A DNA stretch of 64,000 bases from Propionivibrio sp. (lineage in GTDB: Bacteria > Pseudomonadota > Gammaproteobacteria > Burkholderiales > Rhodocyclaceae), in the NCBI GenBank assembly GCA_016705685.1, contig JADJLB010000010.1, positions 310,001 to 374,000 on the forward strand, in the 5' to 3' direction. Position numbers and translations under genes: made by a program. Positions 41,811 to 58,929 of this stretch are shown one piece after another (within the stretch, counting starts at the first letter, position 1; every line of letters starts with the position of its first letter). The notes beneath the pieces were generated by a model. It worked only from the letters and a program-made list of their open reading frames with translations, did no database searches and was not told where the DNA came from.

Positions 41811-44800
41811 GTGGCAAAAAAAATTCATCGGACGCTCAATAAAATCGGTTTGCGAAGCTCTGCTCTTGCACTTGCTTCGTGTCTCGTTCTCTCCGGCGTG
41901 CCATTGGCCGCACAGGCGGCGGGACTTGGCAAGATCGCCGTGTTCTCAGCGCTTGGACAGCCCTTGCGGGCCGAGATCGATATCACGGCGACACGAGACG
42001 AACTCTCCGGGATGAAGGCGCAGCTGGCAGCCCCAGACGCTTTCAAACAGGCCGGGCTTGATTATGCGACGACCTTGCTGAGCATCCGTTTCAGCCTGGA
42101 CAAACGCGCCAACGGCCAACCGGTCATCCGGCTGACCTCGGACAAACCGATCAACGATCCCTTTGTCGACATGCTTCTTGAACTGAACTGGCCAGCCGGC
42201 CGGCTGGTTCGCGAATACACTTTCCTGCTCGATCCGCCTGAAGTTGCGGCCAAGGGCTTCCCACCGCCGGCGCCAGCGATGGCCAAGCCGGCGCTAGCCA
42301 GCAAACAACCTTCCGGCACACACGCTGCGACGCCTATCGACGATGAACTGCGCGGCAAGGCGCTGGCCAGGATCCGCAATCGGGGCACATCGCAGAAACC
42401 GGCCGAACAGCCCGTTGAAGGGCAAAACCAGCGCGAGGTCAAGCGCGGCGATACGCTGCACAAGATCGCCGGCGAAACCAAACCGGAAGGCGTTTCTTTG
42501 GAGCAGATGCTGGTCGGTCTGTTTCGTGCCAACCAGGAGGCCTTCGACGGCGGCAACATGAACCGTTTGAAGGCGGGCAGAATCCTTGTTGTGCCGGAGA
42601 AATCAACCGTCGAGGCTGTTTCAACGGGCGAAGCCCGAAAGATCGTCGTCGCCCAATCCTCCGACTGGAATGCTTACCGCGCCAAACTGGCTGGTGTAGC
42701 AGCCAAGTCGACGGCAGGTAACGACGAAGCCAAGCAGGAAGCCACCGGAAAGATCAGCGCCAAAGTCGAGGACAAAGCGACTCCGGCAGCGGAACCCAAA
42801 GATCAGCTCAAGGTTTCCAGAACCGAAACCGCCACGACCAAACCGGGCGCAGGCACCAACAAACGCAGCGAAGAAGATCTGATTGCCAAGGAAAAAGCCC
42901 TCAAGGAAGCCAATGAACGCCTCACGGCCCTCGAGAAGAACGTAGTCGATTTACAGAAACTGATTGAACTGAAAAATCAGAATCTGGCCGAGTTGCAGGC
43001 ACAGGCGTCCGCCAAAGCCATGCCGGCGGAAGCGAAGAAACCCGCCGAAGAGAGCAAACCGCAATCGACGCCTGCCGAAACAGCCCCTGTTGCGGCTCCC
43101 GCCAAGGTCGAACCCGTGGCACCGGTGGTTGAAAAACCAGTCGAAAAACCCGTGGAAAAGCCGGTTGACGCAAAACCGGCTGAACCGGCAACCAAGCCCG
43201 AAGAGCCCAAACCCCAGCCCAAGCCGGCGGAGAAACCCAAACCAGCCGTGGCGCCCCCACCAAAACCGGAGGAACCAGGCTTCCTTGACGTATTGCTCGA
43301 CAATCCCCTGGCACTGGCCGGCGGTGGCGTGCTTGCGTTATTGGCCGGTTACTTCGTTGTACGGCGTCGTCAGGCGAGCAAGGAAGAGCCGCAGCTCGAC
43401 TTGACCAGTACGCTGTCACCCCAGAGCAGCAGCCTCAGTCTGACGGCCAATTCGGTCTTCCGGAGCACCGGGGGACAGAGCGTCGACACCTCGCATACGC
43501 CGGCTCAAACCGATTTCAGTCAGGCTGGCCCGGGCAGCATAGATACGGACGAGGTTGATCCGGTGGCCGAAGCCGACGTCTATATGGCTTATGGCCGCGA
43601 TGTTCAAGCCGAGGAAATACTTGTCGAAGCCAAATCGAAAGATCCCAAGCGACATGCCATCCACTTGAAACTGCTGGAAATATACTCGAACCGCAAGGAC
43701 ATCAAGCAATTCGAAAACCTGGCCACCGATCTGTACAGTGATACGGGTGGCGTGGGTGCCGAGTGGGAAAAGGCGGCGGCGATGGGCCTGAAACTGGATC
43801 CTTCCAACCCGCTGTTTGGCAGTGCTTCAGCGCAGGCGGCGCAGCCGCCGGCCCAGGCGACGTTCGACGCGGATGCGACCGTACTCGTTACGCCAGCGGC
43901 GATGAAGAACACGGTTACCTTGCCGGGAGAACTGGCGCAGTTGGCCGAAGCGGCCAGTGCCGAGGCAGCGTCGGCGGCTTCCGAATCGCCGGCCGGAGCA
44001 GACATGACCAGCCTCGATTTCGACCTCGGCCTTGGAGGCGACAAGGCACCTTCAGCGACCGATGCCGACCAGGCGAAGATGGATGAAACGTACCGGCTAC
44101 CCGAACCTGTGGCCGATTCTGGCGCCCTTGATTTCGATCTTGCTTCAGACCAGGCGGCGCCTGCCGATGGTGCTGCCGGTTCCGATGCCGCGGTCGTCGG
44201 CCTTGACTTCGACCTGCCGGAAGCCCCTTCTACGGCGGCTGCCGTCGACGATACCGTCAAAGAAGCAGCAGACCTGGATTTTGACCTGGGCTTTGAATCA
44301 TCGCCGACCGATGCTTCTGCCACGACGTCGGCCGGCCAAAGCCGTGCGGACACCGTGCCCGAAGCCCCCACGGCAAATGAAATCGATTTCGATATCAATC
44401 TGACCGAATCGACCTTCCTGGGTCGCTCGATGCCGGAACCGTCGTCTTTCGACATGACTTCGATCGATCTGGATTTGAAAACGCCGGAACTCGCGATGCA
44501 GAGGACCGAATCCGCTCCCGCCGGGGTCGAGACTACCGTCAATCCAGATACCGCAGACGCGGAGATGGCCAGTGTCTTGGCCACAACGGCAGTCAATCCG
44601 GATTTCGAGACCCAGCAGTTCGAGACGGTGGTCAATCCGCAGTTTGCTGCGGAACCGGATCTTCTGCCGGAGCAGGATTTTTCGACCGAACAGTTGGACA
44701 CGGTCGTCAACCCGCAGTTTGACCAAGAGTCGTCAGTTGGAGCCAGCCAGGATTTCGCCAAGACTCAAGCGGAAACGGTCGTTAACCCCCAATTTGGTGT

Positions 44801-44993
44801 CGAAGCGGACCTTGCCCCTGAATTCGACATCAGCCCGAATGAAGAGGTGACGACAAAACTCGATCTGGCAAAAGCTTATGAGGAAATGGGCGATCTGGAG
44901 GGGGCCAGGGAGCTCTTGCAGGAAGTTTTGAAAGAAGGCGACGCCGCGCAACAGGAAAAGGCACAGTCCATTCTTTCTCGAATCAGCGAATAA
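41811..44993 (+). CDS. fimV: FimV/HubP-type pole-organising protein
   Basis: A roughly 1060-residue inner-membrane protein that organises cell poles and type IV pili or flagella. In order: signal peptide to about LAAQA-AG, the conserved FimV N-terminal domain (GLGKIAVFSALGQPLRAEID), a LysM-like peptidoglycan-binding segment (VKRGDTLHKIAGETK), a coiled coil, a Pro/Lys/Glu-rich linker, one transmembrane helix (about residue 500) and a long acidic cytoplasmic part ending in a TPR-like FimV C-terminal domain (TTKLDLAKAYEEMGDLEGAR). The acidic part carries six LDFDL-like and several VVNPQF repeats. GTG 41811 is my start; a TTG 21 bases upstream is possible. Confidence 0.9.
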   Translation: MAKKIHRTLNKIGLRSSALALASCLVLSGVPLAAQAAGLGKIAVFSALGQPLRAEIDITATRDELSGMKAQLAAPDAFKQAGLDYATTLLSIRFSLDKRANGQPVIRLTSDKPINDPFVDMLLELNWPAGRLVREYTFLLDPPEVAAKGFPPPAPAMAKPALASKQPSGTHAATPIDDELRGKALARIRNRGTSQKPAEQPVEGQNQREVKRGDTLHKIAGETKPEGVSLEQMLVGLFRANQEAFDGGNMNRLKAGRILVVPEKSTVEAVSTGEARKIVVAQSSDWNAYRAKLAGVAAKSTAGNDEAKQEATGKISAKVEDKATPAAEPKDQLKVSRTETATTKPGAGTNKRSEEDLIAKEKALKEANERLTALEKNVVDLQKLIELKNQNLAELQAQASAKAMPAEAKKPAEESKPQSTPAETAPVAAPAKVEPVAPVVEKPVEKPVEKPVDAKPAEPATKPEEPKPQPKPAEKPKPAVAPPPKPEEPGFLDVLLDNPLALAGGGVLALLAGYFVVRRRQASKEEPQLDLTSTLSPQSSSLSLTANSVFRSTGGQSVDTSHTPAQTDFSQAGPGSIDTDEVDPVAEADVYMAYGRDVQAEEILVEAKSKDPKRHAIHLKLLEIYSNRKDIKQFENLATDLYSDTGGVGAEWEKAAAMGLKLDPSNPLFGSASAQAAQPPAQATFDADATVLVTPAAMKNTVTLPGELAQLAEAASAEAASAASESPAGADMTSLDFDLGLGGDKAPSATDADQAKMDETYRLPEPVADSGALDFDLASDQAAPADGAAGSDAAVVGLDFDLPEAPSTAAAVDDTVKEAADLDFDLGFESSPTDASATTSAGQSRADTVPEAPTANEIDFDINLTESTFLGRSMPEPSSFDMTSIDLDLKTPELAMQRTESAPAGVETTVNPDTADAEMASVLATTAVNPDFETQQFETVVNPQFAAEPDLLPEQDFSTEQLDTVVNPQFDQESSVGASQDFAKTQAETVVNPQFGVEADLAPEFDISPNEEVTTKLDLAKAYEEMGDLEGARELLQEVLKEGDAAQQEKAQSILSRISE

Positions 44994-47315: not shown

Positions 47316-48522
47316 ATGGTTGCCCCCCGCTATAACCTGCCCGACACGCTGGGCCACTTTGGCCCGTATGGCGGCACATTCGTTGCCGAAACGCTGATTC
47401 CCGCGCTTGAAGAGCTGAAAGAGGCCTACGCGCAAGCGCAGCATGACCCGCTGTTCAATGCCGAATTCGAGTACGACCTCAAGCATTACGTGGGTCGTCC
47501 GAGCCCCATCTACCACGCCAAACGTTGGTCTGATCGCCTCGGCGGAGCGCAAATCCATCTGAAGCGCGAAGACTTGAACCATACCGGGGCGCACAAGATC
47601 AACAACTGCATCGGCCAGGCCATTCTGGCCCGGCGCATGGGCAAGCCGCGCGTCATCGCCGAAACCGGCGCCGGCCAGCACGGCGTCGCCACGGCTACCG
47701 TGGCCGCACGCTACGGCATGGAGTGCGTGGTTTATATGGGTTCCGAGGACATCAGGCGGCAAGCCGCCAACGTCTACCGGATGAAATTGCTCGGGGCGAC
47801 CGTCGTTCCCGTCACCAGCGGTTCAAAGACGTTGAAAGACGCGCTGAACGAAGCGATGCGCGATTGGGTGACAAACATCGCCAACACCTTCTACATCATC
47901 GGTACGGTCGCTGGTCCGCACCCCTATCCGATGATGGTGCGCGATTTCCAGTCGGTGATCGGCCGGGAAGCCATCGGCCAGATGCAGGAGCAGCATGGCC
48001 GCCAGCCCGACGCCCTGATCGCCTGCGTCGGCGGTGGCTCAAACGCCATGGGGATTTTCTATCCCTATATTCCTCTTGAAGGCGTTCGTCTGATTGGCGT
48101 CGAAGCCGCCGGCGAAGGCATCGAAAGCGGCCACCACGCAGCGTCGCTGACAGCCGGGCGCCCCGGCGTACTGCACGGCAACCGGACGTATCTGCTCCAG
48201 GACGAAAACGGCCAGATCATCGAGACGCATTCGATTTCGGCCGGCCTCGATTACCCGGGCGTCGGCCCGGAACACGCCTGGCTCAAGGATTCCGGGACGC
48301 GCCGAATACGTCACCATCACCGACGCCGAAGCCCTGCAGGCCTTTCACGATCTATGCCGTCTGGAAGGCATCATCCCGGCACTCGAATCGAGCCATGCCC
48401 TCGCCTATGCCGCCAAGCTCGCGCCGTCCTTGCCCAAAGACCAGATCCTGCTGGTCAACCTTTCCGGCCGGGGCGACAAGGACATGCACACCGTCGCCGA
48501 TAAATCGGGCATTCAATTCTGA
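47316..48522 (+). pseudogene. trpB: Tryptophan synthase beta chain, one frameshift near the 3' end
   Basis: TrpB condenses indole with serine using PLP. The N-terminal 327 or so codons are normal: PLP-lysine region [29 protein letters not shown] and the glycine-rich [10 protein letters not shown]. After EHAWLKDSG an extra base at about 48297 shifts the frame; restoring it gives [17 protein letters not shown] and the proper end DKSGIQF at 48522. The full-length product would be 401 residues. As written the frame runs to an alien C-terminus and would be non-functional. ATG 47316 follows AAGGAGAG. Confidence 0.93.
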
Positions 48523-48532
48523 GGATCGGCAC

Positions 48533-49349
48533 ATGTCAAAAATTCAAGCCACATTCGAGCGCCTGCAGGCGCAAGGGCGCCAGGCGCTGATCCCGTTCAT
48601 TACCGCCGGCGACCCCGACCCGGCGCTGACTGTCCCCTTGATGCACACCCTGGTCGAGGCCGGTGCCGACATCATCGAGCTTGGCGTTCCGTTTTCCGAC
48701 CCAATGGCCGATGGGCCGACCATCCAACGCGCCTCGGAACGCGCCTTGCTCAAAGGCGTCAGCCTGAGACAGGTGCTCGGCATGGTGGCCAATTTCCGTG
48801 CCGACAACAACGAGACGCCGGTCGTGCTGATGGGCTATGCCAACCCCATCGAGTCGATGGGTATCGACGACTTCGCGGCAACCGCCTTCGATGCCGGCGT
48901 CGATGGCGTGCTGGTCGTCGATTACCCGCCGGAAGAAGGCGCCGCGTTCGCCCACGCGATGCATGCCAATGCCCTGGACCCGATCTTCCTGCTCGCGCCA
49001 ACCTCGACGGCGGCCCGCATTTCCCAGGTCGCGGCGCTGGCCAGCGGCTATGTCTATTACGTATCGCTCAAAGGCGTGACCGGCTCTACCGCGCTCGACG
49101 TAGACGCCGTCGCCGCGCGCATCCCCGGAAATACGCTCGGCTACCGGCATTCCGGTCGGCGTCGGCTTCGGTATCCGCGATGCGGCAACGGCCGCTGCGG
49201 TCGCCCGTATCGCCGATGCGGTCGTCGTCGGCAGCCGCATCGTCGAAACGATCGAACAGTCGACGCCGGAAAACGTCTGCGCGAATGTTCATGCCTTCGT
49301 CTCGGAACTTCGCCGGGGAATCGACGGCGGAAAAGGACAGCACGGCTGA
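48533..49349 (+). pseudogene. trpA: Tryptophan synthase alpha chain, one frameshift
   Basis: TrpA cleaves indole-3-glycerol phosphate and channels indole to TrpB. The N-terminal 200 or so codons are normal, with the catalytic glutamate in [16 protein letters not shown] and [11 protein letters not shown]. In the run of four C at 49123-49126 one base is extra; removing it gives [20 protein letters not shown] and a normal end KGQHG at 49349, total 271 residues. It follows trpB by 10 bp. The homopolymer site fits a sequencing slip, but a real mutation is possible. Confidence 0.93.
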
Positions 49350-49376
49350 TCCAGGCGCTACCGTTAAAGGAATGTC

Positions 49377-50247
49377 ATGAGTTGGTTGACCAAGCTGTTA
49401 CCGCCAAAGATCAAGCGGAATGCCTCCGGAATAGCCCGCAAGTCCAGCCTGCCTGAGGGGTTGTGGAGCAAGTGCCCGTCCTGCGAAGCCGTGCTGTACG
49501 CCACCGATCTGGAAAAGAACGCCAGCGTCTGCCCCAAGTGTGGGTTCCACAACCGGGTAATGCGCGGGCTCGGATCGATCTTCTACTCGATCCCGAGGGG
49601 CGCCAGGAAATCGGCGCCGAAGTCTTGCCGGTCGATTCGCTGAGGTTCAAGGACAGCCGCCGCTATACCGAACGTTTGCTCGATGCGACGGAGAGCACCG
49701 GCGAAAGCGACGCGCTGGTCGTCATGCAGGAGCACTCAACACCTTGCCTGTGGTGGTGGCGGCGTTTGAATTCGACTTCATGGGCGGATCGATGGGCTCG
49801 GTACTCGGCGAATGCTTCGTTCGCGGTGTGCAGGTGGCGGTCGAGAGCAATTTGTTGTTCCTTTGTGTCGCCGTGTCCGGCGGCGCCCGCATGCAGGAAG
49901 GCCTGTTCTCGCTGATGCAAATGGCAAAAACGTCGGCCGCTTTGACCAGGCTCTCGGAAGCCAGACTGCCGTTTGTGTCGATCCTCACCGATCCGACGAT
50001 GGGCGGCGTTTCAGCCTCCTTTGCCTTCATCGGTGATGTCGTCATTGCCGAACCCGGTGCGCTGATCGGCTTTGCCGGCCCGCGCGTTATCGAGCAGACG
50101 GTACGCCAGGTCTTGCCGGAAGGTTTCCAGCGCGCCGAATTCCTGTTGGAGAAAGGCGCCATCGACATGATCGTCGACCGCCGCGAAATGAAAGACAAGC
50201 TGGCGCAGATTCTGACCATTCTGCAGAAACTGCCGGCCGTAGCCTGA
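49377..50247 (+). pseudogene. accD: Acetyl-CoA carboxylase carboxyltransferase beta subunit, two frameshifts
   Basis: AccD forms the carboxyltransferase of acetyl-CoA carboxylase, the first step of fatty-acid synthesis. The N-terminal zinc ribbon ([10 protein letters not shown], then [10 protein letters not shown]) and later [20 protein letters not shown] and [17 protein letters not shown] are typical. One base is missing at about 49557-49561 and another at 49729-49730; with both restored the product is 290 residues. Several normally conserved residues are changed in the middle (ECFVRGVQV for ERFVRGVQA). The 3' 540 bp is duplicated at 53518-54056. It is normally followed directly by folC, here 6 kb away. 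Confidence 0.92.
49708..50247 (+). repeat. Direct repeat, copy 1 (3' part of accD)
   Basis: The last ~540 bp of accD recurs at 53518-54056. My hand alignment finds about 17 substitutions and three one-base indels. Homology begins at CGACGC before codon VVMQ and ends at the stop codon; the flanking sequences beyond are unrelated. Nine consecutive differences at 49749-49874 are all T here and C in copy 2. Confidence 0.85.
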
Positions 50248-50587
50248 AGGCGAACGTCATTGTCGATGCGCAGGAGCATGACGATCTGGCGTTCCCGCGC
50301 ATGGCCGACGTTGCAGCGATTGTTTCCGGATCAAGCCGCCTGGGTGGCCTATCTTTGGGATGCTCGGTCGAGCAACGAGTTCATCCGTGGCTACTGTGGA
50401 TCACCCGGCAAACAGAATCGCCCTGCCAATCGACACGGCGTTGGTCGGTACCGCCAATGCAGCCACGCGGCATACTGACCGGAAGGGATTTTGTCGATGA
50501 CGAAAGTGTACGAAGTCACCCCGTCCAACTGAGGTTTCTAGGATTATTTCGTGCTTATATCTGAATTGATCGTGCTAAACTTTGGAC
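50248..50587. other. Spacer between accD and the MNT gene
   Basis: About 340 bp without a recognised gene. A frame starting just after the accD stop reads ANVIVDAQEHDDLAFPRMAD; a loosely similar [14 protein letters not shown] occurs at about 53400-53444 just before the second accD segment, hinting that both flank a common ancestral sequence. The promoter for the MNT-HEPN pair should be here but I could not assign one. Confidence 0.35.
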
Positions 50588-51176
50588 ATGTCGATTGCGA
50601 ATGCTCTCTTTCCGATAGCCAGTCGCGAGTCCTGCTATGCCTTTTGGCCAGCCGGATCGGCGTTTCCATTTGAGCGAACTAAGACGCCTCACCCGACTTG
50701 GAAGTGCGTCCTTGCAACGAGAATTGAATCGTCTTGCTGGCGCCGGGCTAGTAACTACGGAACACATCGGGAACTTGCGATGCTTCCAGGCGAACCCTGC
50801 CAGCCCGGTATTCGGCGAGTTGAAGTCGCTGATCCGCAAGACACTCGGGATCGAACCATTACTTCGAGAGGCACTGACGCAATTACAGCCCAAGCTTCAA
50901 GCTGCCTTGATCTACGGTTCGATTGCCAAACAAACGGATACTGCACAAAGTGACATCGATCTGATGCTGATCGGCACAGACCTGTCATTGAATCTCGTCC
51001 TGGAATTGCTCATACCGACCGAAAATCAGCTTGGGAGAAAGATCAACCCGACCTGCTACACGCCATCCGAATTTGAACGACGCCGCGCTGAACCCGATTC
51101 ATTCGTCAACCGGATTCTGGCCCAACCCGTCATCCCTTTGATTGGGCAGATTGATGGGCCTTCAATCGCTGGATAA
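50588..51176 (+). pseudogene. Nucleotidyltransferase (MNT) antitoxin with N-terminal winged helix, probable frameshifts near the start
   Basis: MNT-domain protein of the MNT-HEPN toxin-antitoxin class, in which the MNT partner modifies (AMPylates) and silences the HEPN RNase. The catalytic motif GSx10DxD is complete: GS at IYGSIAKQ, DID at QSDIDLM. A winged-helix part precedes it (HLSELRRLTRLGSASLQREL). The clean frame runs from ATG 50637; the family N terminus MSIANALFP starts at ATG 50588 and rejoins if one base is restored before 50629 and one in the T-run at 50642-50644. Its end overlaps the HEPN gene start. Confidence 0.8.
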
Positions 51177-51189
51177 CCTGGTACGTATC

Positions 51190-51193
51190 GGCC
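51190..51193. repeat. Target-site duplication GGCC, left copy
   Basis: GGCC immediately before the left inverted end of the IS; the same GGCC follows the right end at 52876-52879. It falls inside the Gly codon of HEPN (RIG), and one copy restores the frame. Confidence 0.8.
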
Positions 51194-51209
51194 CAGACCG
51201 TGTGAAAAC
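51194..51209 (+). repeat. Left terminal inverted repeat of the IS
   Basis: CAGACCGTGTGAAAAC, matching the complement of 52860-52875 at 15 of 16 positions. Confidence 0.85.
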
Positions 51210-51269
51210 CTTGACGACCACCCCTGGTTCATGATATGATGTACGCATATAGTGAATTGGGGGGCTGTG

Positions 51270-52699
51270 ATGAAGCGATTCATTCAAGGTGAATGCCGAA
51301 CCCAGAGCACACTCCTCCCTGAACAACTTGACGACTATGTTTCGGATACTAATCCGGTGCGGGTCGTTGATGTCTTCGTCGATGAACTGGATTTAGGCAA
51401 ACTGGGGTTTGAAGGCGTTGAACCGGCGGCCACCGGTCGGCCCGCTTACCATCCTGCCAGTCTTCTGAAGATCTACATTTACGGCTACCTGAACCGGGTC
51501 CAGTCTAGCCGGCGGCTTGAGAAGGAAGCCCAGCGCAATGTTGAACTGATGTGGCTGACCGGCCGACTGATGCCGGACTTCAAGACCATCGCCGATTTCC
51601 GCAAGGACAACGGCAAGGCCATTCGTCGTGTCTGTCGCCAGTTCGTGGTGCTGTGCCAGGAGCTTGGCCTGTTCTCCGAAGCGCTGGTCGCGATCGATGG
51701 CAGCAAGTTCAAGGCCGTCAATAATCGGGACCGGAACTTCACCAGCGCCAAGTTGCAACGCCGAATGAAGGAAATCGAAGCGAGCATCAGTCGCTACCTG
51801 AGCGACCTCGACACCGCTGATCGGCAGGAACCTACTGTAGCCAAGGTCAGGACTGAACGGCTGCAAGACAAGATCGCCGCGTTGAAAGAGCAGATGAAGG
51901 CGCTCAAGGAGATCGAGGTCCAACTCGAAGCGACGCCGGATAAACAGATTTCCTGACCGACCCCGATGCCCGCTCGATGAAGACCCGAGGCACCGGCATC
52001 GTGGGCTACAACGTCCAGACAGCCGTCGATGCGAAGAATCATCTCATCGTTGCGCACGAGGTGACAAACATCGGCATCGACCGAGATCAGCTGACCTCAA
52101 TGGCGAAGCTTGCACGCGATGCGATGGGTACCGACGACATTACGGCGATTGCGGATCGGGGTTACTTCAAGAGCGAGGAAATCCTTGCCTGCGATGAAGC
52201 TGGAATCACCGTGATCGTTCCGAAGTCCACCACCTCCAGTGCGAAGGCTGATGGACGATTCGACAAGGCAGACTTCATCTACGATGCCGAGAAGAATGAA
52301 TACCGCTGCCCTGCCGGGCAGCAGCTTATCTGGCGGTGCTCAAGCATTGAGCGAGGGCTCAAGCTACACCGCTACTGGAGTTCGCACTGCCAGCAGTGTG
52401 CGATCAAGGACAAATGCACTCCCAGCACCGAAAGACGCATTACCCGTTGGGAGAATGAAGATGTGCTCGATGCCATGCAAGCCCGCCTGGATCAAGCGCC
52501 TGAAAGTATGCGCATTCGGCGCCAGACGGTGGAACATCCCTTCGGGACGCTCAAGCTATGGATGGGCAGCGCACATTTCCTGACGAAGACCCTGAAGCGG
52601 GTCAGTACAGAAATGAGCCTCCACGTTCTCGCCTATAACCTCAAGCGAGTCATGAAGATTCTTGGACCCACGGTTCTGATGGCGGAGATGAGGGGCTAA
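51270..52699 (+). pseudogene. IS1182-family-like transposase, one frameshift
   Basis: A DDE transposase of the IS1182/IS4-like type. The N-terminal part reads RFIQGECRTQSTLLPEQLDD and LMWLTGRLMPDFKTIADFR, and includes the first Asp region VAIDGSKFKAVNNRDRNF. One base is missing at 51952-51953; restoring it joins DKQIS to LTDPDARSMKTRG, after which DDITAIADRGYFKSEEIL and RRQTVEHPFGTLKLWMG supply the later catalytic Asp and Glu regions. Total about 476 residues when joined. As written it would be inactive. ATG 51270 was chosen on position. Confidence 0.9.
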
Positions 52700-52859
52700 G
52701 GCCCTTTATGTCGTCGTCAATCTGGCCACGTACCACTTGATAGAGCATTTTCTTGAAGCAATACCATCTCATGGACAAAAAAACGCGCCTGCCCTGAAGC
52801 CCTTAGCGAAGCAGGAAGGCATATAGACGCAGAAATTGACGGTGCGCTCAACTTCTTGC

Positions 52860-52875
52860 GTTTCCACACGGTCTG
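52860..52875 (-). repeat. Right terminal inverted repeat of the IS
   Basis: Reads CAGACCGTGTGGAAAC on the minus strand; pairs with the left end. Confidence 0.85.
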
Positions 52876-52879
52876 GGCC
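52876..52879. repeat. Target-site duplication GGCC, right copy
   Basis: Second copy of the 4-bp duplication flanking the IS, immediately followed by AGCTCAAG of the HEPN gene. Confidence 0.8.
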
Positions 52880-53517
52880 AGCTCAAGACTGAACCTCGGA
52901 ATATTGTCGAGGTGACCAGAATGCTCGGCATGGCGCGTACTCGCCTTGAAGATTCTCGTCTTGAGAATCTCTCTCTCGAAGGCCGTTTTACCAGCGCATA
53001 CAACGCCGCCCATGCGGCATCGCTGGCAGCGCTGCGATGGCATGGCTATCGCAGCGAGAATCGATTTACTGTCTTTCAATGCTTGGTGCATACCTTGAAT
53101 TGGCCGCCCAGCCGTTGGCGCGTATTGGATACGGCGCATCACAAAAGAAATCTTGCCGAATACGAAGGGTTTCTGGAAATCGAAGAGTCCACTGTCGCAG
53201 AGATGTGCGATCTGCTTCCTGGTCTGATCGACGATGTGCAACGACTGATAAATTCCGCGCCGTAGCTTCGTTGCCGATCTACCTTGAGAATCGGGCCACG
53301 CCGTGGCAATGGAAGGCCTCATCGATTTACGTGAACTTATCCGGTCGCCTCCCAGACCCACTGCCGGAAACATCCAGAGGAGTCAGGTGAGCTTGGGGCG
53401 AACATGGTCATCGACGTGCTGGAGCATGATGTTCTGGTGTGAGCCTAACCGACCGGCCTGCGTTCATTTTCCGGCGGGTCCGCCAGGAAGCTGGCGGGCG
53501 TCGCTTGACACACGGAT

Positions 53518-54056
53518 CGACGCCCTGGTCGTCGTGCGGGGAGCACTCAACACCTTGCCCGTGGTGGTGGCGGCGTTTGAATTCGACTTCATGGGCGGAT
53601 CGATGGGCTCGGTACTCGGCGAACGCTTCGTTCGCGGTGTGCAGGCGGCGGTCGAGAGCAATCTGCCGTTCCTCTGCGTCGCCGCGTCCGGCGGCGCCCG
53701 CATGCAGGAAGGCCTGTTCTCGCTGATGCAAATGGCAAAACGTCGGCCGCTTTGACCAGGCCTCGGAAGCCAGACTGCCGTTTGTGTCGATCCTCACCGA
53801 TCCGACGATGGGCGGCGTTTCAGCCTCCTTTGCCTTCATCGGTGATGTCGTCATTGCCGAACCCGGTGCGCTGATCGGCTTTGCCGGCCCGCGCGTTATC
53901 GAGCAGACGGTACGCCAGGTCTTGCCGGAAGGTTTCCAGCGCGCCGAATTCCTGTTGGAGAAAGGCGCCATCGACATGATCGTCGACCGCCGCGAAATGA
54001 AGGACAAGCTGGCGCAGATTCTGACCATGCTGCAGAAACTGCCGGCTGTACCTTGA
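53518..54056 (+). pseudogene. Second, partial copy of accD (3' 540 bp), frameshifted
   Basis: Repeats the last ~180 codons of accD without the zinc ribbon or any start codon context. It reads [20 protein letters not shown] and [18 protein letters not shown], closer to the usual AccD sequence than copy 1 in this segment. It lacks one A at 53737-53740 and one base near 53759-53763. Upstream (53266-53517) no gene is recognised. It might be the displaced original 3' end of accD, with copy 1's end brought in by the inserted DNA, or a duplication arising in place. Confidence 0.85.
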
Positions 54057-54213
54057 GGGGTTCTTATCGCTGACGGAGTTAGGATTCTGCCCCTATTAGG
54101 CCACTTCCGGAAGATTGCGAGTTGGCATAAAGCTGCCGTTCGGGCGTACTAGGTGTATGCTGGCGCGCTATATCTATATTTCCTTCTTTTCTGCATTTCT
54201 CGACCACAGCATC

Positions 54214-55167
54214 ATGCCCATTCCCGACTACCAAACCCTAATGCTCCCTTTGCTGAAACTTGCGAGAGATAAGCAAGAGCATCGATTTCGAGATGCAATT
54301 GAGCATCTTGCCTCAGAGTTCAAGCTTACAGATGATGAGCGGGGCACAATGCTACCCAGCGGAACGGCGCCGGTATTCGACAATCGCGTGGGGTGGGCAC
54401 GAACCTATCTCAAACAGGCAGCTTTGCTGGAGTCGCACAAACGGGGCGTTTTTTGCATAACCCGAGAGGCTTTGAACTCCTGTCGGCGAACCCAAGTCGG
54501 ATTGACAACTCGACGCTTGAACGATTTCCGGAATACTTGGCTTTTAGGCTCCGTAGAAACGAAGAAGGGCCGCCAGGCGACGTTCCTCAAACCAGAGCAA
54601 TGCCTGGACGAGTAGCCCGCTCCACCAATACAGCGCCGGACTCCACGCCGGAAGAGCTTTTTCTCAGGCCTACCAACGCCTGCGTAGCAATCTGGAAGCT
54701 GAACTTCTTGAGCAAGTCAAATCGTCTTCACCGGCTTTCTTCGAGCGTCTCGTCATCGACCTTCTAGTGGCAATGGGGTATGGTGGTTTCGTCAGGACGC
54801 CGGACGGGCGATTGGAAGAAGTGGAGACGGAGGAATCGACGGAATCATCAAAGAAGACAAACTTGGCTTAGACGTCATATATATACAAGCAAAGCGTTGG
54901 GAGGGTACCGTCGGTCAGTCCTGAAATCCAGAAATTCGCTGGTGCGCTGCAGGGACAACGTGCGAGCAAGGGAGTCTTCATTACAACTTCCGGATTTTCA
55001 AAAGAGGCTGAGGAGTATTCTGCGGTTATTTCGTCAAAAGTTATTCTTATCACGGGCGAACTTCTTGCCACGTTGATGGTTGATCACAACGTGGGCGCGT
55101 TTCTCCAGTGAGCAAGTTTGAATTGAAACGCATCGACTCAGACTATTTCGAAGGCGAGAATGTGTAA
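54214..55167 (+). pseudogene. mrr: Mrr-type restriction endonuclease, multiply frameshifted
   Basis: Mrr cuts methylated DNA. The N-terminal winged-helix domain is clear: MPIPDYQTLMLPLLKLARDK and PVFDNRVGWARTYLKQAALL. The frame breaks near 54461 (a missing C), then again near 54600-54680, 54790-54835, 54925 and 55100. In turn the frames read ANPSRIDNSTLERFPEYLAF, RSNLEAELLEQVKSSSPAFF and GGIDGIIKEDKLGLD followed by the catalytic D-QxK site (VIYIQAKRWEG), and end KRIDSDYFEGENV at 55167. The intact protein would be about 318 residues. As written it is non-functional. Confidence 0.8.
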
Positions 55168-55261
55168 CACTCAGTCAGACATTCGCTATGAGGCACTTCC
55201 CCTCGAGAGCGAAAGTGGGGGGACACCTGTTCGTTAGCCATTATCCTGACGGCTGATCACA

Positions 55262-56192
55262 ATGAACAACGCCCTGAATGCGACCCCTTGCTCTTGCTCG
55301 TCAGAAATTCGACGAGCTTACGCATCTGGTTTCGCTGGATGAATTGCAGACCTTTCGACTTGGGGACGATGCAGCGGAGGCGCATCGAGGTGCCACTTGG
55401 GTCGCTAAACAAAGAACTGAGCACGATCGAGCGCGAGCTACGAGTTGATGCAGAGGTTCCTGTCACGCAGCTTGCCGCGTCGCATATCAAGTTCTTCCGC
55501 GAACACCTGGAACCGAATGCGCGAGTGCTTCGTCGAGCGTACTGGGAATGCACCGGCCTCCGCGATCTCATTGAGTCGCTTGATGAGTACGAGCCAAACC
55601 ATCCCTGCCGCTCGGTCAAAGAGGCGATTGCGTGGGGCTTAGAGCGATGGGGCGACATGCTCGATGACGATGAACTGGAAGATTGGCAATCTCGCGGCTT
55701 CGCCATCGACGCGGCGATTGAAGCGATTGAATTACCGTGGTTTGAGCCCGATCGCTGGTTGGAAAACATGCTCCTACTTCAGCCCGTGCTACTGGACAGG
55801 CCACCACAACATGTTCGAGACCATATTCGATATCGTCTCTCAGAGATTTATCGCGCCTTCACGTTTGGTCTATGGATGTCGTCCATTGCACTATGCAGAT
55901 CACTGCTTGAGTATTCGCTGAAAGATACAGCACTGCAATGTGGTATTGAAAGGGCGAAAGTTGGCAGTCGCGGCGAGTTAGAAGACAAGTCAATGAAGGA
56001 ACTTAGCGATGAATTCTCCGAGCAATTCCCCGCTTAGCTTCGCGCTTGAGCAAGTGAGGATGCAGGCAATCGAATCATGCACGCAAAAAGCATGACGTCG
56101 TGGCGTACCCAAAGGTCTTGCGCGAAGATGCTTTGGGGTGCATTCGCTCAATACGGCAGTCATTGGAAACCATCTATACGCGTACCTCATGA
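55262..56192 (+). pseudogene. DUF4145-like protein, frameshifted
   Basis: The longest clean frame (55288-56037) reads a soluble acidic protein with TFGLWMSSIALCRSLLEYSL and DKSMKELSDEF, resembling DUF4145 proteins often found beside restriction or defence genes. The frame then breaks near 56030, but AGNRIMH and KKHDVVAYPKVLRED in other frames continue the same family to a TGA at 56190-56192. The start is uncertain; ATG 55262 is plausible with one frame correction. DUF4145 is grouped with HEPN-like folds in some classifications; that is a family-level statement, not seen here. Confidence 0.55.
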
Positions 56193-56354
56193 TGACCGTC
56201 CGATTTCTAACTTGTGCGGCAGCTTTCCCTATCACGCCAGTTCCGCTTTGAGTCGAATTGAGACCTTGGAACCGGGTTCTATATATTTCCGTCCGACTGC
56301 TCAACAGCATGCCATTGCAATGTTGATTGCAATATCACCGATGACTGAATCCTG

Positions 56355-57715
56355 ATGAATCTTGGTACCCCCCGCCCATCGACGTTGATCGCACCGAAGG
56401 CACTGTTAGCGAAATCACTGCAGGACTGGCTGGTGCACCTCGAAGGCCTCCATCCCAAAGGGCAGGCTGGAATCGAGCTCGGGTTGGAGCGGTCAACCGC
56501 GTCAAGGCAACGTTGCAGCAAACTCAGGACTGCCCGCTGATCGTCGTCGGCGGCACCAACGGCAAGGGCTCGACCTGCGCTTATCTGGAAGCCATCTATC
56601 GCTACGCCGGTTACCGAGTTGGATGCTATACCTCGCCGCATTTGCTGGACTATAACGAACGCATACGCGTCGACCAACGGCCGGTCGATGACGAAACGCT
56701 TTGTCAGGCTTTCGCCAGAGTCGAGGCGGCCAGACTCGCCGCCGGCAGCGTTGCGCTGACCTATTTCGAGTTTGGCACGCTGGCCGCCTGGGAAGTATTC
56801 GCCGCGTGCCAGGCCGAGGTCGTCATCCTCGAAGTGGGTCTGGGCGGGCGGCTCGACGCGGTCAATGTCTACGATGCCGATTGTGCAGTGGTGACGGGGA
56901 TTGCCCTGGATCACACCGCATGGCTAGGATCGACGCGCGAAGCCATCGGTTTTGAAAAAGCAGGAATCTTCCGCACCGGCGTGCCGGCAATCTGCAGCGA
57001 CCCCGAACCGCCGCAATCGCTGCTGGATCATGCGGCCGGAATTGGCGCCGATCTTCGCTTGCTCGGCCGCGATTTCGGCTATTTCGGCGACAAGGCGCAA
57101 TGGACGTTCTGATGCGCGACAGGCAGAGTCTGGACGAAGGCGCGGTGTTCCGCCGCGGCGGCCTGGGCCAACCCGGCGTTGCGCGGCGCCCGCCAGTTGC
57201 GCAATGCCTCGGCGGCGCTCGCCGTGTGCGAGGCGCTCAAGCAGGTGCTGCCGGTATCGATGCAGGCGATTCGACGCGGGCTCATTGAACTGGAGTTGCC
57301 GGGTCGTTTTCAGGTTTTGCCCGGGCGGCCAGCAGTGGTGCTCGATGTGGCACACAATCCGCAAGCACTGGCTGGTCTGGCGGACAACCTCGGCAACATG
57401 GGGTTTTTCGAGAAGACCATCGCCGTCGTCGGCATGCTCGCTGACAAGGATATCGCCGGCGCGCTGCAAGCTTTGCGCGGCAAGGTCGACGTCTGGCTGC
57501 TGACCGGACTGGAAGTGCCGCGCGGCGCGCCAGCGGGAACGCTGGCCGCCGTCGTAGCCGACAGCCAGCTGGGTGGCAGCGTCGCGTGCTTTGCCTCTCC
57601 GGAAGAAGCCTACGCCAGCGCCGCCAAGCAGGCCGGGGAAAATGATAGAATCCTCGTCTTTGGGTCGTTCCATACGGTGGCAGCCGTCATGCGCGCGCTG
57701 AAACTGCGCCGCTGA
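56355..57715 (+). pseudogene. folC: Folylpolyglutamate/dihydrofolate synthase, three frameshifts
   Basis: FolC adds glutamate to dihydropteroate and folates. The ATP loop VVGGTNGKGSTCAYLEA, SPHLLDYNERIRV and the late VLDVAHNPQALAGLA are clear. One base is missing at 56491 (GLER then VNRVKATLQQ), one at 57110-57111 (QWTF then WMRDRQ), and one is extra in GGG at 57166-57168 (then ANPALRGARQLRN). Corrected, it is about 453 residues. It normally follows accD directly; here 6 kb of inserted DNA separates them. FolC is essential in most bacteria, so sequence errors are likely. Confidence 0.9.
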
Positions 57716-57773
57716 TCAATCCAAGCTCGCTGGCTTACCATTCGAACCTGTTTACTCAACTCGTCAGAACACG

Positions 57774-58442
57774 ATGTCCGACTCCCCAGATGCCAATTTG
57801 CAGTTAAAAAAGCGGGCGCGCCGTCGCCTGGTCGGCGCAATTGCCTTTGCCGGCTTGGCCGCCGTGGTGTTGCCGATGATCATGGACGAAGAGCCGAAGC
57901 AGCAGATCCAGGACATCCAGATACGCATCCCCGGTCAGGATCAGACCCCGTTCAATCCCAAGGTCGGCAAACCGGCCACCTCGCCTGCAAGCAGCGATCG
58001 ATCGGCCGCATCGGGCAAGACAGAAACGGTACCCGCGCCACCGGTCCCCAATACAGCCAAGACGGTCGAAGCGCCGCCGTTGAACAAGGCGGGAGACAAG
58101 CCGCCTGAACCCGCGGGCAAAGCCGCCGCCAAAGAGCCTCTGCAAGCGGCAGCGAGTTCCGCCGGCAAGACGGAAGATGTTGTTTTAAGCGCCATCGCCA
58201 AGAGCACCGGCGGCCAGTACATCATTCTGATCGGTGCTTTTTCCAATCCGGCGAACGTCAAGCAATTGCAGACCAAAATCGGCGAACTGGGCGTCAAGGT
58301 GTTTACCGAGCCGCTGGATTCGCCCGGTGGAAAGAAGACACGCGTACGCGCCGGCCCCTTTGACAGCCGCGAAGCCGCCGACAAGGCGCTCGACAAGATG
58401 AAACGTATAGGCGTCAACGGGGTCATAGCTGCCAAACAATGA
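57774..58442 (+). CDS. SPOR-domain protein (DedD-like)
   Basis: A 222-residue bitopic protein: short basic N terminus (KKRARRRLVG), one transmembrane helix at about residues 22-40, a Pro/Ala/Lys-rich periplasmic linker and a C-terminal SPOR domain (YIILIGAFSNPANVKQLQTK, then RVRAGPFDSREAADKALDKM) that binds denuded septal peptidoglycan. The position between folC and cvpA is that of DedD. Intact, unlike its neighbours. It overlaps cvpA by 4 bp. Confidence 0.9.
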   Translation: MSDSPDANLQLKKRARRRLVGAIAFAGLAAVVLPMIMDEEPKQQIQDIQIRIPGQDQTPFNPKVGKPATSPASSDRSAASGKTETVPAPPVPNTAKTVEAPPLNKAGDKPPEPAGKAAAKEPLQAAASSAGKTEDVVLSAIAKSTGGQYIILIGAFSNPANVKQLQTKIGELGVKVFTEPLDSPGGKKTRVRAGPFDSREAADKALDKMKRIGVNGVIAAKQ

Positions 58443-58929
58443 CTGTTTTCGATTACGTTGTTATCACTCTGGTTGTGGCTTCCGCAGTACTGGGTCTTTG
58501 GCGTGGCGTAGTGGGCGAAATCATCGCGCTGGTGGCGTGGGTCTTGGCCTTCTTTGCCGCAAAGTGGTGGGGGACTGAGTTGGCTCAAACGTTCTTTTCC
58601 GGAATATCCGACCCCGCCGTGCGCATCTGTGCCGCCTGGGCAAGCGTATTCGTCGTTGTGCTGGTATTGATGGCGCTGTTGCGTCTGGCCATGCGGGGCT
58701 TGCTCAAGGCGCTGGGTCTGAGTCTCAGCGATCGCCTGCTGGGTATCGTTTTCGGCGTGGCACGCGGCCTGGTCATCGTTCTGGCGCTGGTTGCCGTTGG
58801 CGGATGACCCAGGTACCGAAAGAGAAATGGTGGACCGAGGCTTATCTTTCAGCACCCCTTGAGACGTCGGTGCTGGCCGGCAAGCCCTGGTTACCGCCGG
58901 ATGTGTCCAAACGTATTCGTTTCAGGTAG
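58439..58929 (+). pseudogene. cvpA: CvpA family membrane protein, one frameshift near the end
   Basis: A small membrane protein with four helices (FDYVVITLVVASAVLGLWRG at the start), linked genetically to colicin V and purF. The clean frame ends after VALVAVGG at 58807; restoring one missing A at about 58804 continues MTQVPKEKWWTEAYLS and ends RIRFR at 58929, 163 residues, the normal length. It is followed 8 bp later by purF. Confidence 0.88.

Follow-up and report, generated by a model that had tools for sequence, protein, structure and literature searches.

How does a set of defence-type genes come to lie between two core genes that are usually neighbours, when no integrase is seen with it? 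The question is raised by accD and folC in a 64,000-nucleotide stretch of Propionivibrio sp. DNA (the window), which is part of contig C10 (814,235 bases) of a genome of 3.46 Mb in 17 contigs, with 97.35% completeness and 0.15% contamination. The accD-folC interval spans positions 50248-56354 (6.1 kb). It holds an MNT-HEPN toxin-antitoxin pair, an insertion sequence (IS), a second 3' segment of accD, an Mrr-type endonuclease gene and an orphan open reading frame (ORF). A preliminary description of the locus had proposed that a 6-kb islet splits the accD-folC junction and that the junction might be an integration hotspot. The islet is confirmed, and comparison with relatives shows that the junction is a recurrent insertion point for accessory genes in this genus and family, often with defence cargo. 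With moderate confidence we favour an account in which two modules were stacked at this site by recombination in accD and now form what is probably a largely inactive relic.

The evidence for recurrent insertion comes from three samples. Of 80 named loci, 48 have folC downstream of accD, and the other 32 had no folC match in the stretch covered. The gap between the two genes is at most 200 bp in 45/48 linked loci; it is 1.4, 1.5 and 4.0 kb in the remaining three (L129, L140, L174). In the order, each protein was used to search 300 genomes, and some 150 of its matches were listed; 106 genomes, one per species, appeared in both lists. Among the matches listed, accD and folC are linked in 98/106 genomes and unlinked in eight. 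In 91 of the 98 linked genomes the genes are less than 300 bp apart, in five they are 300-1000 bp apart, and in two the distance exceeds 1 kb (G221 and G036). Adjacency of accD and folC, earlier assumed to be the usual order, is indeed the rule in relatives with linked genes.

The genus sample comprised 28 genomes including the window's own, 14 of which have accD. The two genes are linked in 13/14 and are direct neighbours in 8/13. Inserts were found in G021 and G013 (0.8-0.9 kb), G012 (3.6 kb), G000 (6.2 kb) and G022 (7.8 kb), these gaps including about 105 bp of folC. Inserts of at least 1 kb therefore number 3/13 in the genus versus 2/98 in the order among the matches listed (Fisher p 0.011). 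In G018, the unlinked genome, separate contigs carry accD and folC (L040, L078). The accD contig ends 491 bp past the accD match and the neighbours of folC differ, which makes this a rearranged or occupied junction.

The occupants are unrelated to one another, and several include defence-type genes. G022 carries a type III-like restriction-modification set consisting of a ResIII protein, an AlbA_2 protein and a type III-like methyltransferase, plus a DhiT-like gene that scored 79.5 bits against a curated cut-off of 100. In G221, a member of the same family, the stretch between folC and accD (L102:2549-4412) encodes a TIR protein (E 5.6e-29), a PIN protein (E 6.9e-9) and a further, unassigned ORF, a group that is possibly a defence set. 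The insert of G012 holds an Fe-ADH (alcohol dehydrogenase) protein and GGDEF-EAL proteins. The ORFs in the inserts of about 0.9 kb in G013 and G021 gave no Pfam match. The 8.5 kb between accD and folC in G036 read by eye as housekeeping genes and were not counted as defence. The same flanks are empty in many relatives and enclose unrelated cargo in others, which is the pattern expected of a hotspot and bears out the earlier suggestion. A literature search for a defence hotspot at accD and folC brought up one paper, on mycobacterial drug resistance.

What occupies the junction in the window? All assigned features lie on the forward strand. Full-length accD (copy 1) ends at 50247, having started at 49377, with its frame interrupted near 49559 and 49729. 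It is followed by a stretch without convincing match (50248-50516) and by one end of an element resembling a miniature inverted-repeat transposable element (MITE) at 50517-50542. The first module begins with the MNT nucleotidyltransferase gene (50637-51176), whose antitoxin-like product matches Polbeta of Pfam (E 3.3e-7) and PDC-M05A of PADLOC (E 2e-68). Its reading frame is open over the full length. The HEPN gene starts at 51154, runs to 51193, immediately before the IS, and resumes at 52876-53265. The HEPN piece at 52861-53262 matches PDC-M05B of PADLOC (E 2.8e-55) and nothing in Pfam. The motifs described for MNT-HEPN systems are GSX10DXD and RX4HXY, according to the part of the source concerned with them (PMC11586414). 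GSX10DXD is present in the MNT protein, next to the HEPN gene. Despite the strong PADLOC match, RX4HXY was not found in the HEPN piece, which has R-X5-H. Relatives of MNT occur in 47/198 genomes searched (the window's own counted), and a HEPN match was found near MNT in 10/11 fetched loci outside that genome (L091-L101), the weakest with E 0.047. The pair thus resembles the type VII toxin-antitoxin system PDC-M05A/B in that both subunits match, MNT precedes HEPN and the MNT motif is present. It differs in the interrupted HEPN gene, in the R-X5-H motif and in an extra N-terminal part of MNT, which has a weak MarR match below cut-off.

The IS had been described as a neighbour of the toxin-antitoxin pair. 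Instead it lies inside the HEPN gene at 51194-52875, with the 4-bp sequence GGCC on both sides (51190-51193 and 52876-52879). It has inverted ends, and its transposase carries the domains DUF772 and DDE_Tnp_1_6, features that together with the short target repeat place it in the IS1182 family. Its DNA is about 76% identical to ISPa7-type plasmid copies. Unlike ISPa7-like elements it has a transposase split into two ORFs (51252-51956 and 51977-52699). No second copy was seen in a search of the window's own genome. In L091 homology to the window breaks at the position of the IS and picks up again five bases on, so the IS arrived after the MNT-HEPN pair had formed.

A second stretch without convincing match (53266-53515) separates the HEPN gene from the second accD segment (53516-54056). 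The latter is followed by the second module, composed of an Mrr-type (type IV) restriction endonuclease gene (54214-55171) and the orphan ORF (55288-56037), after which comes folC (56355-57715), which is interrupted by a stop. A likeness between the two unassigned stretches was considered and rejected, as the local score was 59 and the highest of 200 shuffles scored 60. The interval has a G+C content mostly of 0.49-0.57 outside the accD copy, as against about 0.58-0.66 in the flanks.

The Mrr assignment stands on domain matches, found when the pieces were searched separately against Pfam: Mrr_N (E 1e-28) and Mrr_cat (E 4.1e-11 and 1.1e-12). The gene also matches mREase_IV of PADLOC, and in these respects it resembles methyl-directed type IV restriction enzymes. 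The earlier picture of a single Mrr ORF does not hold, since the gene is spread over at least three frames, with at least three frame changes in about 0.94 kb, which may stem from sequence error. Relatives with an intact frame exist (305-308 aa), and matches at E<=1e-10 were found in 16/198 genomes, the window's own included. The last gene had been labelled DUF4145-like and HEPN-related. That identity was not supported, as the Pfam model gave no match. The ORF had no Pfam match at E<=0.1, only an irrelevant one (E 0.17) when E<=10 was allowed, and nothing in NCBIfam, PADLOC or PHROGs at E<=0.01. In 297 genomes no relative turned up other than in its own genome, nor any in plasmids, viral_contigs or genome_contigs. 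Matches to PDB sequences had E values of 0.75 or worse, and a single-sequence structure model was unusable (mean pLDDT, the predicted local distance difference test, 44.2).

The clue to how the two modules came together is the second accD segment, which was already noticed in the preliminary description. It comprises only a 3' part of the gene, from near codon 106-112 to the stop codon, and is identical to copy 1 at 499/513 compared positions (97.3%), differing at 14. No accD of 11 relatives comes as close: the nearest, that of G022, is 85.2% identical at the DNA level to copy 1 and 87.0% to copy 2 in the 3' part. No second accD copy was found in searches of the 13 other accD-bearing genomes of the genus, among them the occupied G012, G013, G021 and G022. 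Because the homology stops at the stop codon, each module lies directly behind an accD 3' end, the MNT-HEPN module (module A) behind the full gene and the Mrr and orphan module (module B) behind the truncated copy.

Nine of the substitutions in copy 1 are neighbours within 126 bp (49749-49874), and all are C to T on the coding strand. These sites have C in most of the 11 relatives, and four of the changes alter the protein at conserved positions. The other five differences lie outside the run, and for two of these the direction is reversed. The statistics obtained for the run (0.004 and 0.0002, alignment columns 51-511) are post hoc, because the compared range was picked after the alignment was seen. 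The run could be an artefact, the product of a strain mixture or the result of strand-biased deamination.

These features are consistent with the following route, which does not call for an integrase. Imported DNA carrying a flanking core gene would have entered the genome. Homologous recombination in accD would then have set two alternative occupants of the junction in tandem, leaving the extra accD 3' end behind as a scar. The high identity of the two accD ends, well above that to any relative, argues for such recombination. If intact, the MNT protein would modify and thereby silence the HEPN ribonuclease, and Mrr would cleave modified foreign DNA, judging by the functions of their families. 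A bolder version takes the accD 3' end as a legible scar of hotspot turnover, with occupants stacked by core-gene recombination and a C-to-T run that may record cytosine deamination in single-stranded DNA; we consider this version doubtful.

Several points weigh against the favoured account. When the window's own genome is left out, inserts of at least 1 kb number 2/12 in the genus against 2/98 listed in the order (p 0.058). The sample from the genus is small: each species is represented by one genome, and many contigs are short. The occupants, as in G012 and G036, are not all defence genes. According to the portion of a study of E. coli that bears on this point, defence systems are almost always carried by mobile elements there, and median hotspot occupancy is 8% (PMC10121019). 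Recombination in accD alone leaves the join of 53266-53515 to the second accD end unexplained. The relatives examined show neither a donor nor an intermediate allele that carries just one of the two modules, and for that reason the recombination route is one that we infer. Finally, a frame interruption is close to the C-to-T run, which could itself be an artefact. Misassembly or strain mixture might likewise have produced the accD copy and the module order, with only one module really beside accD. The frame interruptions gather in trpB, trpA, accD, folC and cvpA around the islet, and nine same-direction substitutions beside a frame break are what poor consensus in a repeat might look like. We nevertheless judge an assembly artefact unlikely. 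The contig is 814 kb long in a genome of high completeness and low contamination, both unassigned joints are unique sequence, and the accD ends, because they differ at 14/513 positions, are not one sequence placed twice.

Could a mobile element have brought the islet without recombination in accD? Integrative elements that rebuild their target gene carry a 3' part of it, and the second accD copy is just such a part, with the stop codon as its end. A site-specific element might thus have targeted the accD 3' end, restored the gene with its own accD end and since lost its integrase. We regard this as improbable. In agreement with the preliminary description, searches of the ORF pieces brought no integrase to light, and the one phrog_95 match (E 0.0012) falls on the IS transposase. 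Four occupied relatives with other cargo, G012, G013, G021 and G022, have no second accD 3' copy, which speaks against such an element, and the accD repeat exceeds 500 bp, whereas attachment sites are usually shorter. A comparison of the module boundaries gave no direct or inverted repeats longer than those in shuffles. Transposition is a still poorer candidate, and we give it little credence. The MITE-like end and the IS1182-family element would in that case be remnants of a composite mobile unit; one MITE-like end does lie 94 bp before the annotated MNT start, and the IS is within the module. The partner of this MITE-like end was not found in the window, the IS is inside HEPN and so later than the module, and the homology of MNT-HEPN with relatives begins at 50568, past the MITE-like end.

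The MITE-like family has inverted ends of about 20 bp and 5-bp flanking repeats, the ends of the measured copies being about 236 or 120 bp apart. The repeat occurs at eight sites in the window's own genome, including the one at 50517-50542 (L002-L008 are among the loci), and at two in G048 with one mismatch. None was found in 57 other genomes searched. A copy in a Gallionella metagenome-assembled genome (L124:5648-5883) is found some 2 kb downstream from accD, beyond two genes that we take to be ispF- and tsaB-like. Because of this distance and these genes the repeat is not an accD-site element. A reading of the 31-bp repeat at 50517 as an integron attC site was rejected, as the eight sites are scattered and copies have two inverted ends with 5-bp repeats.

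Is the islet active? The 12 core genes matched around it have at least six interruptions (trpB 1, trpA 1, accD 2, cvpA 1, folC at least 1), and these cluster at 48295-58926; no interruption was seen in a 3.1-kb gene at 41841-44984, in purF or in metZ. Consensus errors are therefore likely in this stretch, and broken frames alone do not prove decay, since core genes are affected as well. An intact accA (333 aa) is present elsewhere in the genome, so accD would be needed and its interruptions would then be errors. The IS within HEPN is an interruption that does not depend on consensus errors. With an IS in HEPN and a fragmented Mrr gene, the islet has probably become a relic that is largely inactive. 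The earlier label of a defence island therefore fits the gene content and does not extend to a working system.

A separate observation concerns accD in the rest of the genus. The same 14/28 genomes (in the sample G000-G027) have a match above cut-off for neither accA nor accD; the window's own accD fell below the cut-off only because it is in pieces. Completeness is 90% or more in seven of the 14. The junction is covered in six genomes without the two genes (L068, L073, L074, L077, L080, L082). In four of these (G011, G016, G019, G024) trpA directly adjoins folC, and in G005 and G026 one SBP_bac_3-type gene lies between them. Half of the genus seems to have cleanly lost or replaced the carboxyltransferase subunits of acetyl-CoA carboxylase. 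None of eight papers found in a search on Accumulibacter and this enzyme appeared to deal with the loss of accA and accD. Their joint absence may deserve more attention.

The accD-folC junction has parallels among known hotspots, as far as the relevant parts of the sources describe them. Recombination at flanking core genes has been proposed for hotspots without integrases (PMC5635113), and for core defence hotspots of P. aeruginosa transduction and homologous recombination that leave no mobile-element scars (PMC10250203). Like the core-flanked hotspots in these two sources and in PMC10121019, the junction has fixed core neighbours, many empty genomes and varied cargo, and here no integrase was recognised. 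Unlike them it is 6 kb in size, was sampled across species and not strains, and has a copied core-gene end between its modules. The junction, flanked by the named core genes accD and folC, is thus one more insertion site with defence cargo, at which further accessory and defence genes can be sought in this group. If it is genuine, the accD scar would be physical evidence for the proposed, usually traceless growth of integrase-free hotspots via recombination in flanking core genes.

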